DNA from: Cupriavidus taiwanensis
GTDB lineage: Bacteria > Pseudomonadota > Gammaproteobacteria > Burkholderiales > Burkholderiaceae
Assembly: GCF_900250075.1 (NCBI RefSeq)
Contig: NZ_LT977070.1
Coordinates: 434,001-498,000 of the forward strand
DNA: 64,000 nt
Direction: 5' to 3'
Shown here: positions 31,518 through 60,469 of the stretch, piece after piece
Numbering within the stretch: the first letter of the stretch is position 1
Layout: each line of letters starts with the position of its first letter
Translations under genes and position numbers: made by a program
Notes under the pieces: model-generated
Databases searched by the model: none
Told to the model about the DNA's origin: nothing
Seen by the model: only the letters and a program-made list of their open reading frames with translations

Positions 31518-31523
31518 TATAAT
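31518..31523 (+). promoter_or_regulatory. -10 box of the metX leader promoter
   Basis: A perfect TATAAT lies 8-9 bases before the riboswitch fold, so the transcript should begin at about 31530, right at the first paired base. TGCAAC at 31494-31499 is a weak -35 candidate. Confidence 0.75.
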
Positions 31524-31530
31524 TGCCCGG

Positions 31531-31619
31531 TCGCGCCGATTTGATGACTGGCTTGCGGGCGCGCGGCAGCCACGGACAGGGTTCCGATGGCTCGCCACTA
31601 TAAATGCGGCTAAAGAGGT
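31531..31619 (+). ncRNA. SAM-II riboswitch in the metX leader
   Basis: P1 is CGCGCC (31532-31537) with GGCGCG (31558-31563). The loop reads GATTTGA...CTTGC, as in SAM-II RNAs. A 30-base insertion that can form its own hairpin follows, then the 3' core TATAAATGCGGCTAAAGAGG. The GATTT, TTGC, ATAAATG and GCTAAA blocks occur in the order and spacing of known SAM-II elements, where they build the SAM-binding pseudoknot. It precedes metX, a methionine gene, as expected. Binding of SAM should lower metX expression. Confidence 0.85.
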
Positions 31620-31692
31620 TGGGTCGGCGCCCCATGCCACCACGGCAGTGGATGGCGCCGGCACGCGGAATCCCGCAGGGAATCCAGCGAAT

Positions 31693-31741
31693 CCCGACTT
31701 GGCTGCGACGCTTGATACGCAAATGCCGGTCGGGTTTTTTT
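31693..31741 (+). terminator. Intrinsic terminator in the metX leader
   Basis: Stem CCCGAC/GTCGGG, extended by GGC/GCC, is followed by TTTTTTT, about 75 bases after the riboswitch and just before metX. It implies control by premature termination. GGGTCGG at 31621-31627 could pair with CCGACTT at 31694-31700 and act as an antiterminator. Another strong hairpin, with GGCGCC arms, occupies about 31626-31659. Confidence 0.8.
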
Positions 31742-31768
31742 ATGCCCGTTCGCCACGGGCCGGATTCC

Positions 31769-43266: not shown

Positions 43267-43272
43267 GTTTGC

Positions 43273-43567
43273 ATGGAGAAGGGAACAGCGCATTACAGCC
43301 TGGCGGAAGTGCGTGCACTTCTCGAGGCGGGACGAATGAGGCTGACTCGTACTGCTTACGATGGAGCGAACCAGATGGGGCTGAATAAGCGAAGTGTGCG
43401 TGACATACTTCTGCAACTTGCCCCCCGGGACTTTTACAAGAGCATGAGCCTATGAGGATCACACGGTGTGGCAGGACGTCTATCGGCCTATCACACCGAA
43501 TGGCGCCTTGTATGTGAAGCTCATAGTCACCGATGGCGTTTTGGTCGTTTCATTCAAATTCAGGTAG
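43273..43567 (+). pseudogene. mqsR: MqsR-type mRNA interferase toxin, frameshifted
   Basis: The first frame (43273-43455) encodes 60 residues, MEKGTAHYSLAEVRALLEAG onward to PRDFYKSMSL, then stops at TGA. The rest of MqsR continues in the +1 frame from 43451: YEDHTVWQDVYRPITPNGAL, then YVKL...VVSFKFR and TAG at 43565-43567. The joined length (97-98) equals E. coli MqsR. All catalytic-type residues survive: Lys56 before the break, and Gln, Tyr and Lys in WQDVY, LYVKL and SFKFR after it. MqsR cleaves mRNA at GCU. The break lies in AGCCTATGAG. It may be a recent mutation, a sequencing error, or a programmed shift. Confidence 0.8.
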
Positions 43568-43593
43568 TTCGCAGAGCAAGGAGGAACGGTCAG

Positions 43594-43992
43594 ATGAAGT
43601 GCCCGGAATGTGGCGGCGCCGAACTCGTGGATGGACTGCGAGACGTGCCCTATACATATCGTGGCGAGACCACGGTAATTCGCGATGTCAGGGGGGATTG
43701 GTGCCCGAGGTGCGGAGAAGGAGTCATGCCCATGCATGACGATTCACTGGGCGAAGCGATGCTCGCCTTTAACAAGCAAGTCAACGCCAAATACCTGGAC
43801 CCCACCTTCATCACTGAGGTTCGCAAAAAGCTCCGCCTTGATCAGCGCGAGGCAGCCGAAATATTTGGCGGGGGCGTCAATGCATTTTCTCGGTATGAGA
43901 CGGGGCGAACCATGCCGCCGCTGGCGCTGATCAAGCTGCTGAAAGTGCTGGACCGCCACCCCGAACTGCTAGCGGAAGTCCGGGCGGCCTGA
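43594..43992 (+). CDS. mqsA: MqsA antitoxin
   Basis: A 132-residue antitoxin and repressor. The N-terminal zinc domain has MKCPECGGAELVDG and DWCPRCGEGVM, two CxxC pairs as in E. coli MqsA. The C-terminal Xre-type helix-turn-helix has VRKKLRLDQREAAEIFGGGVNAFSRYETGRTMPPLALIKLLKVLDRHPELL, extremely close to the E. coli protein. AAGGAGG eight bases before the ATG gives strong translation. It is intact although its toxin is broken. GC content is clearly lower than in neighbours, suggesting horizontal gain. Confidence 0.93.
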   Translation: MKCPECGGAELVDGLRDVPYTYRGETTVIRDVRGDWCPRCGEGVMPMHDDSLGEAMLAFNKQVNAKYLDPTFITEVRKKLRLDQREAAEIFGGGVNAFSRYETGRTMPPLALIKLLKVLDRHPELLAEVRAA

Positions 43993-50684: not shown

Positions 50685-50690
50685 TATAAT
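50685..50690 (+). promoter_or_regulatory. -10 box of the metK leader promoter
   Basis: A perfect TATAAT lies eight bases before the first stem of the SAM-II-like element, the same spacing as at metX. TGCAAC at 50663-50668 is a weak -35, again as at metX. Confidence 0.72.
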
Positions 50691-50697
50691 AGCGTGT

Positions 50698-50768
50698 ATC
50701 GCCGAGTTAACTGACAACTTGCGGGGCGATGCGGCTCTAACCGGGCTGCCTGAAATACCGCTAAAGCG
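50698..50768 (+). ncRNA. SAM-II-like riboswitch in the metK leader
   Basis: P1 is ATCGCC (50698-50703) with GGCGAT (50725-50730). Its loop reads GAGTTAACTGACAACTTGCGG, aligning with the GATTTGA...CTTGC loop of the metX element. A small hairpin (GCGGC/GCTGC, 50731-50749) follows, then TGAAATACCGCTAAAGCG, the counterpart of the ATAAATG..GCTAAA core. GCGG in the loop can pair with CCGC in the 3' part to form the pseudoknot. It differs from SAM-II at some core bases, so confidence is lower. metK makes SAM, which fits feedback control. Confidence 0.65.
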
Positions 50769-50824
50769 TCGCCGCCATGAACCGAACAGGCTGGCACGCA
50801 ATAGCCAACCTGGAGAATAAGTTC

Positions 50825-51988
50825 GTGGCAAACGACTTCCTTTTTACTTCGGAATCCGTCTCCGAAGGCCATCCCGACAAGGTCGCCGACCAGATTTCCG
50901 ACGCCGTCCTGGACGCCATCCTGGCGCAGGACAAGTATGCGCGTGTGGCAGCTGAGACGCTTTGCAACACCGGTCTGGTGGTGCTCGCCGGGGAAATCAC
51001 CACGACCGCCAACGTCGACTATATCCAGATCGCGCGCGACACCATCAAGCGCATCGGGTACGACAACACCGATTACGGCATCGACTACAAGGGCTGCGCC
51101 GTGCTGGTGGCCTATGACAAGCAGTCGCCGGATATCGCCCAGGGCGTCGACCGTGCCTCGGACGACTACCTGAACCAGGGCGCCGGCGACCAGGGCCTGA
51201 TGTTCGGCTACGCCTGCGACGAAACCCCGGAACTGATGCCGTTCCCGATCTACTACGCGCACCGCCTGGTCGAGCGCCAGTCGCTGCTGCGCCGCGACGG
51301 CCGCCTGCCCTGGCTGCGCCCGGACGCCAAGTCGCAGGTCACGGTGCGCTATGTCGACGGCAAGCCGCACAGCGTGGACACCGTGGTGCTGTCGACCCAG
51401 CATTCGCCCGACATCACCCAGGCGCAGATCCGCGAGGCCGTGATCGAGGAGATCATCAAGCCGGTGCTGCCGGCCGAGATGCTCAAGGAAACCAAGTACC
51501 TGGTGAACCCGACCGGGCGCTTCGTGATCGGCGGGCCGCAGGGCGACTGCGGCCTGACCGGGCGCAAGATCATCGTCGACACCTACGGCGGCGCCTCGCC
51601 GCACGGCGGCGGCGCGTTCTCGGGCAAGGACCCGTCCAAGGTCGACCGCTCGGCCGCCTACGCCGCGCGCTACGTGGCCAAGAACGTGGTGGCCGCGGGC
51701 CTGGCGCGGCAGTGCCAGGTGCAGGTCAGCTACGCCATCGGCGTGGCGCGGCCGATCAACGTGACGGTCTATACCGAAGGCACCGGCAAGATCCCGGACG
51801 CCAAGATCGCGGAACTGGTGCAGGAGCATTTCGACCTGCGCCCGAAGGGCATCGTGCAGATGCTGGACCTGCTGCGTCCGATCTACGAGAAGACCGCGGC
51901 CTATGGCCACTTCGGCCGCGAAGAGCCGGAGTTCTCGTGGGAAGCCACCGACAAGGCGGCTGCGCTGCGCGCCGCGGCGGGCCTGTAA
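50825..51988 (+). CDS. metK: S-adenosylmethionine synthetase
   Basis: MetK makes SAM from methionine and ATP. The 387-residue protein begins with GTG in [23 protein letters not shown], the conserved start with the ATP His. [21 protein letters not shown] near 118-138 and [18 protein letters not shown] near 260-277 are the family signatures. GGAGAAT stands nine bases before the GTG. An in-frame ATG at 50777 would add 16 residues but lacks a ribosome site. Confidence 0.96.
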
Positions 51989-58185: not shown

Positions 58186-58390
58186 GATGTCTCCTCGAGC
58201 TGGGCTTGCCGTTTGCTTGCATGGTAGAGCACGCCGCGCCAGCATGAGTGCATGGTCGTGCGCTTATGGTCGATTTTTGCGATGCACCATGCGCGATTCG
58301 ATACCTTTTTGCACAGCTGTGGCACCACCCACGGGGGGCAACTGGCACTGGCGCCCACCGGTGCTCTGTGCTTAAATTCACCCCGTTGGA

Positions 58391-60469
<2,079 letters not shown>

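Follow-up and report, generated by a model that had tools for sequence, protein, structure and literature searches.

A SAM-II-like leader element upstream of metK in Cupriavidus and many related genera, a probable riboswitch for SAM synthetase

Within one 64,000-nucleotide stretch of Cupriavidus taiwanensis DNA (hereafter the window), both metX and metK are preceded by leaders that an earlier note had read as related SAM-sensing elements, the one before metK perhaps a variant class. This raises the question of what the metK leader is and what it does. Judged by its sequence, the element is a separate sister form of the SAM-II kind, which we termed type K, and we consider it quite probable that this subtype acts as a riboswitch of the SAM-II structural kind, placing metK translation under feedback OFF control by SAM.

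The metX leader contains a diverged SAM-II element, type X, which we defined as GATTTGA..CAGCTTGC..GCTAAAG, and its features lie upstream of the metX start (ATG 31769) as follows:
31532–31615 (+): element of the metX leader, type X (diverged SAM-II) and containing an inserted hairpin; partial match to RF00521
31692–31741 (+): terminator-like hairpin and T-run before metX, from the fold of 31685–31742

A TATAAT box (31518–31523) is followed, after eight bases, by P1 (31532–31537/31558–31563), the inserted hairpin (fold −18.7) and GCTAAAG (31609–31615). RF00521 matched this element partially (31532–31563; 19.8 bits, E 0.022, under the cutoff of 36), and type-X relatives in four loci reached 36.9–44.8 bits; this sub-cutoff match itself, together with the relatives above the cutoff, supports the earlier assignment of the metX element as SAM-II-like. 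Across the order Burkholderiales, RF00521 exceeded its cutoff in 51 of 300 genomes and matched at E ≤ 0.01 in 141 of 300; on the window's own genome it gave no match at E ≤ 0.001, and 14 control genomes were equally silent. Further downstream, the fold of 31685–31742 reached −20.3 kcal/mol (z −2.46), and the pattern scanner listed no terminator in the metX leader. Elsewhere in the order, type X precedes metX (L156), metZ (L146, an ORF matching O-succinylhomoserine sulfhydrylase with 684 bits) and metH (L150, an ORF cut by the locus end, with methionine synthase as its best model); in other gamma-proteobacteria it stands before metZ-like genes (tblastn) or metE (PF08267). According to the accessible text of Leyn et al. 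(2014; PMC4239095), the metXZ element of beta-proteobacteria comprises six conserved regions, a pseudoknot and a terminator upstream of metX or metZ, and SAM_alpha occurs in Rhizobiales and Rhodobacterales only. Compared by this description alone, the metX element of the window fits the metXZ element in its pseudoknot, its terminator and its position upstream of metX/metZ. We also observed matches to RF02424 (Bp2_287, a candidate sRNA of Burkholderia) on the strand opposite type-X elements and their surroundings, in the window (31561–31740, −) as well as in L051, L042, L057, L131 and others; because the matches fall antisense to type X, the model of this family may have been built from a SAM-II leader in reverse complement.

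The metK leader (50685–50825) repeats the layout of the metX leader (31518–31615), with TATAAT, P1, pseudoknot and inserted hairpin in one order:
50685–50690 (+): −10 box TATAAT, read from the sequence
50698–50730 (+): P1 stem (ATCGCC 50698–50703 with GGCGAT 50725–50730) and loop L1 (GAGTTAA..GACAACTTGCGG)
50731–50749 (+): inserted hairpin, from fold and alignments
50753–50770 (+): AAAT, then the pseudoknot strand CCGCTAAAGCGTC, from covariation and pocket alignments
50721–50724/50758–50761, 50719–50720/50763–50764, 50718/50766 and 50713–50715/50768–50770 (+): P2 pairs
50774–50829 (+): predicted expression platform, GCCATGAAC (50774–50782) pairing with GTTCGTGGC (50821–50829) over the GTG start, with an inner hairpin beside the SD
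50825–51988 (+): metK, methionine adenosyltransferase (SAM synthetase); NCBIfam TIGR01034, 602 bits

The motifs that the earlier note had named are all found in the sequence: a GA.TT.A loop (GAGTTAA, 50704–50710) and CTTGCGG (50718–50724), the inserted hairpin with its arms GCGGCTC/GGGCTGC, and GAAAT (50752–50756) followed by CCGCTAAAG (50758–50766). Its spacing of eight bases between TATAAT and P1 holds at metX, whereas it is seven at metK. The scanner found no full sigma-70 promoter in either leader; TATAAT lies ≤16 nt upstream of P1 in all 24 same-genus leaders, and we infer that transcription of the metK leader starts approximately at P1. The inserted hairpin (−9.6 kcal/mol, z −2.39; 7 of 200 shuffles equally good) is variable among type-K relatives and missing from the compact ones. 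As for the coding sequence, an in-frame ATG at 50777 was rejected as the start since an ATG occupies that place in just 8 of 24 same-genus leaders, leaving GTG 50825 as the most likely metK start; the encoded protein is 98% identical to MetK of Cupriavidus lacunae (L176). The gapped core CTTGC..GAAAT..GCTAAAG occurs once in the 64 kb and in none of 100 shuffles. A search of the 6.77-Mb genome for a second type-K copy found none, the next match (15.7 bits, E 1.6) being without the core motif. Likewise, blastn against plasmids gave no site covering 80% of the query; among the 20 matches listed, only the query's last 61 bases, which are the start of the metK coding sequence, were matched. Two other features of the window are a TPP riboswitch (RF00059, 69.6 bits; 58387–58488, +) upstream of thiamine genes and two small ORFs (approximately 43270–43992, +) that presumably resemble a toxin–antitoxin pair of the MqsR/MqsA type.

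Rfam 15, applied to the window at E ≤ 10, returned no RF00521, RF01826, RF01727 or other riboswitch match over the metK element; the sole match was a fortuitous one to isrH (7.6 bits), on the opposite strand. The same was seen elsewhere: in 20 type-K loci Rfam gave no match over the element at E ≤ 10, and in 17 further loci (13 tandem, 4 metK) none on its strand at E ≤ 1, while the tandem type-X partner matched RF00521 in 12 of the 13 tandem loci. In L057, the antisense Bp2_287 match overlaps type K by 12 bases. The type-K consensus reads GA[G/U]UUAA..GACAACUUGC NN - P1′ - AAAU.. NN GCUAAAGCGUC. With a SAM-II core, a loop signature of its own, a U10 counterpart that is usually G, no Rfam riboswitch match and no terminator found, the metK version is indeed a variant, as had been suspected.

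Type K is widespread. A covariance model of it, with P1 as sole structure and P2 left out, matched at E ≤ 0.01 in 175 of 300 Burkholderiales genomes, which fall in 92 of the 134 genera; type X is included among these matches, as the model picks it up too, less strongly (L030, L045, L047 and L058 being left out of that comparison). A class-wide search with the model matched 27 of 274 genomes, 24 of them outside the order, mostly with type X or tandems; two genomes of one genus outside the order (L300, L306) have type K 96–103 nt before metK with a UU/AA extension. In named genomes, the exact core pattern was found in at least 120 stretches, with carriers including Cupriavidus, Herbaspirillum, Massilia, Undibacterium, Polynucleobacter, Thiobacillus and Accumulibacter. 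Among the matches listed, 102 of 120 named loci (70 of 80 plus 32 of 40) have metK no more than 300 nt downstream, and a MATE gene follows type K in seven of the 120. The wider regulon that two SAM-sensing leaders had suggested thus takes shape, with the SAM-II form at metX, metZ, metH and metE and type K at metK and others. At five loci (L053, L067, L070, L111, L116; first ~220 bases, −), an SAH riboswitch (RF01057, 52–55 bits) lies ~1.3 kb from the metK type K, which suggests that metK and SAH-controlled genes are neighbours there.

The earlier note had expected P1 and pseudoknot bases to differ and still pair, and had named covariation among homologous metK leaders as its check. Using tool shuffles and a tree-based null of our own in place of R-scape, we found covariation in favour of the structure: P1 and two P2 pairs covary across metK leaders. 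For this we took from the model matches only the 77 loci with metK downstream; the first alignment had been made without L024 (long insert), L028 (another match from a genome already represented) and repeated rows. In the 76 distinct leaders, 95.6% of cells pair, compared with 89.9% when shuffled and 30–57% when slid, and eight pairs are changed on both sides (all six of P1 and two of P2). A second set, of 67 distinct named leaders from the matches listed, gave 96.6% pairing cells and seven pairs changed on both sides; since the pattern by which it was picked fixes most of P2, only P1 and two extension pairs are informative in this alignment. The dinucleotide that follows UUGC and the one that precedes GCUAA read GG/CC in 40, AG/CU in 27 and GA/UC in 8 of 101 parsed type-K elements. 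The remaining 26 are mixed, and in some of these the junction is shorter and the dinucleotides do not pair; of 165 model matches, 21 went unparsed, and these type counts partly result from the parser's own pattern. With model columns 37–56 and identical rows dropped (147 to 130 rows), the four best of 1540 column pairs under the tree null all fell in the proposed structure (E 0, 0.1, 1.1 and 2.0), this null being heavy-tailed, so that only the first pair is clearly significant.

Turning to the ligand, we take the SAM-II pocket to be formed by U10, U11, U21, U44 and A45–A47, with U10 corresponding to U8 of SAM-V. By our own mapping, the type-K counterparts of U11, U12, U21, U44 and A45–A47 are kept in 74–76 of 76 distinct leaders, while at the U10 position 62 leaders have G, 13 have U and one has a gap. 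For SAM-V, SAM binding is reported to be virtually identical to that of SAM-II: the sulfonium lies next to a base triple of U9, U20 and A48, the adenine is paired by U47, which also forms a weak pair with U8, and A50 contacts the amino acid part (PMC6061858, as far as its accessible text goes). Our best guess for the ligand of type K is still SAM.

That type K would instead be a riboswitch of other specificity on the SAM-II scaffold, responding to SAH, MTA, methionine or another compound, is a reading we regard as unlikely. It draws on the G at the U10 position in 62 of 76 leaders, on SAM-I variants reported with their ligand changed to spermidine (PMC10853860, accessible text), and on tandems in which type K follows SAM-II, an arrangement that would act as a logic gate if the ligands differed. 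However, the downstream gene in those 102 of 120 named loci among the matches listed is SAM synthetase itself, and the residues that would face the sulfonium are conserved when mapped with the accessible SAM-V description (PMC6061858).

These tandems, with type X first and type K second, were found in 30 loci of the order (three spurious matches, covering L154 and L159 and third elements in L051 and L089, left out) and, by a stricter pattern, in 32 of 159 fetched loci; the reverse order was not seen among the tandems of these 159. All 32 have a T-run of at least five between the two elements, and 24 lead into an ORF of ~100 aa starting with MYDC or MFDC (for example L035, L044, L057, L078, L082 and L093). 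Two MYDC proteins had no family in Pfam, and 23 of these 24 loci also contain a gene resembling the L078 MATE pump (PF01554). Other tandems stand before HD-domain proteins (L095, L295: PF13328) or ORFs without an assigned function, and MoxR-type ATPases (PF07728) follow a tandem in L285 (near 1408–1522, +) and a lone type K in L068 (1471–1528, −); together with L097 and L294, these loci place type K or tandems before MoxR-type ATPase or HD-domain genes that have no evident connection to methionine. Sherlock et al. (2022; PMC9481103) report, in the text accessible, 44 SAM-II riboswitches in tandem, and in some of them a terminator is followed by an element controlling the RBS; the idea of two mechanisms is therefore already known. 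Extending it, one could suppose that type K is an aptamer class of its own with changed recognition (G10 for U10), which behind a SAM-II terminator switch would form a two-step or two-input gate that allows expression of accessory genes (for the MYDC/MFDC protein with its MATE pump, MoxR-type ATPases and HD-domain proteins) only upon a collapse of SAM or a change in a second ligand; we consider this improbable.

How might a SAM-II-like aptamer before metK control expression? The scanner found no intrinsic terminator in the metK leader. Instead, the region between the pseudoknot and the gene is predicted to fold back on the start: 50767–50835 reached −26.0 kcal/mol (z −3.14), with one of 200 shuffles equally good. 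Across 178 distinct leaders, the 24-nt stretch directly 3′ of the pseudoknot can base-pair with the 20 nt leading up to its own metK start (mean −14.2 kcal/mol), compared with −9.6 kcal/mol when partners were shuffled among leaders (lowest of 50 shuffles, −10.1), and a second complementarity score on 180 leaders agreed with this excess for the own RBS. Examples of such flank/RBS pairs are GCAGGCTC/GAGCCTGC, GCTTCTCCG/CGGAGAAGC and CAGACTCC/GGAGTCTG; in the window, the flank/SD duplex is weak (−6.1), and it is the start codon that the stem covers. In 125 of 177 leaders, the SD is predominantly paired (probability of being unpaired <0.3), compared with 43 of 99 controls with shuffled heads. Pseudoknot-free folding gave a closed stem with or without the aptamer, and the SD was clearly more open with the aptamer in only 9% of the 177 leaders. 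A competing helix of L1–P1′ with the flank, considered as the ON state, was rejected, being barely better than shuffled (−11.57 versus −11.17; lowest shuffle, −11.39).

As the 3′ flank matches its own metK RBS beyond shuffled partners, a translational OFF switch for SAM is probable. In such a switch, the nascent RNA would begin near P1 and fold into an H-type pseudoknot; SAM would sit within P2, with the GCUAAA strand on one side and the L1 uridines on the other, and its binding would lock the pseudoknot, freeing the 3′ flank to pair with the metK RBS or start codon. Translation of SAM synthetase would then drop. The sequence comparisons bear out the RNA structure (by covariation), the near-invariant pocket, the linkage to metK and the anti-RBS complementarity; the ligand, the OFF direction and the coupling of the pocket to the anti-RBS stem are what we infer. 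A conserved pseudoknot beside a closed RBS stem could also be a protein site, and a structured leader might govern metK via a protein or via RNA stability without a small ligand; against this very unlikely reading, the core is the ligand pocket common to SAM-II, unpaired invariant residues included. That the element is a DNA operator or a chance similarity with no RNA function is hardly credible given the compensatory changes in P1 and P2, a core found in 0 of 100 shuffles and model matches in 175 of 300 genomes, even if the core's primary sequence is highly conserved and the scanner sees no full promoter.

A SAM-II-type switch being the preferred reading, one of its nearest known relatives is SAM-II itself (SAM_alpha, RF00521), with which type K shares the P1 + P2 pseudoknot, the GA.UU loop, CUUGC, AAA, GCUAAAG and an association with methionine/SAM genes; the metK element has the H-type pseudoknot of SAM-II, with P1, L1 and a P2 whose 3′ strand is GCUAAA. 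Unlike SAM-II, type K has no RF00521 match, mostly G for U10, a ACAACUUGC loop and two extra covarying P2 pairs, and an anti-RBS takes the place of the terminator. The metXZ element shares the core with type K, and the accessible text of Leyn et al. describes none at metK (PMC4239095). With SAM-V (RF01826) and tandem SAM-II/SAM-V, according to the parts of the reports accessible, type K has in common the SAM-II-like pocket, translational control and the second position after a terminator-type SAM-II (PMC6061858, PMC2704228, PMC9481103); however, the type-K loci scanned gave no RF01826 match, and in type K the predicted partner of the sequence 3′ of the pseudoknot is an SD some tens of nucleotides farther along, whereas the SAM-V SD is described as lying inside P2a. 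The tandem SAM-II riboswitches of PMC9481103 share the arrangement of terminator first and RBS second, and the accessible text gives no gene or lineage for them. Finally, the SAM/SAH riboswitch (RF01727) is likewise a translational pseudoknot in metK leaders, yet in the text accessible it is reported in Rhodobacterales only, and the type-K loci gave no RF01727 match. In the open-access literature searched, we found no description of a SAM-II-like element before metK in beta-proteobacteria. Type K is a genuine variant of the SAM-II kind, conserved across many genera and not described in that literature.

Regulation of metK in beta-proteobacteria had been sought without success, as the accessible text of Leyn et al. 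(2014) has it (PMC4239095). Lying upstream of metK in many genera and absent from Rfam, type K would fill this gap in metK control, and it ties the metX element to SAM-II. The natural series of U10 and G10, of X and K, and of single and tandem elements offers a view of how SAM pockets and expression platforms evolve, and type K brings unexpected genes into view as candidates for SAM control. On the strength of these leaders, many beta-proteobacteria probably use type K to turn metK down when SAM is plentiful.
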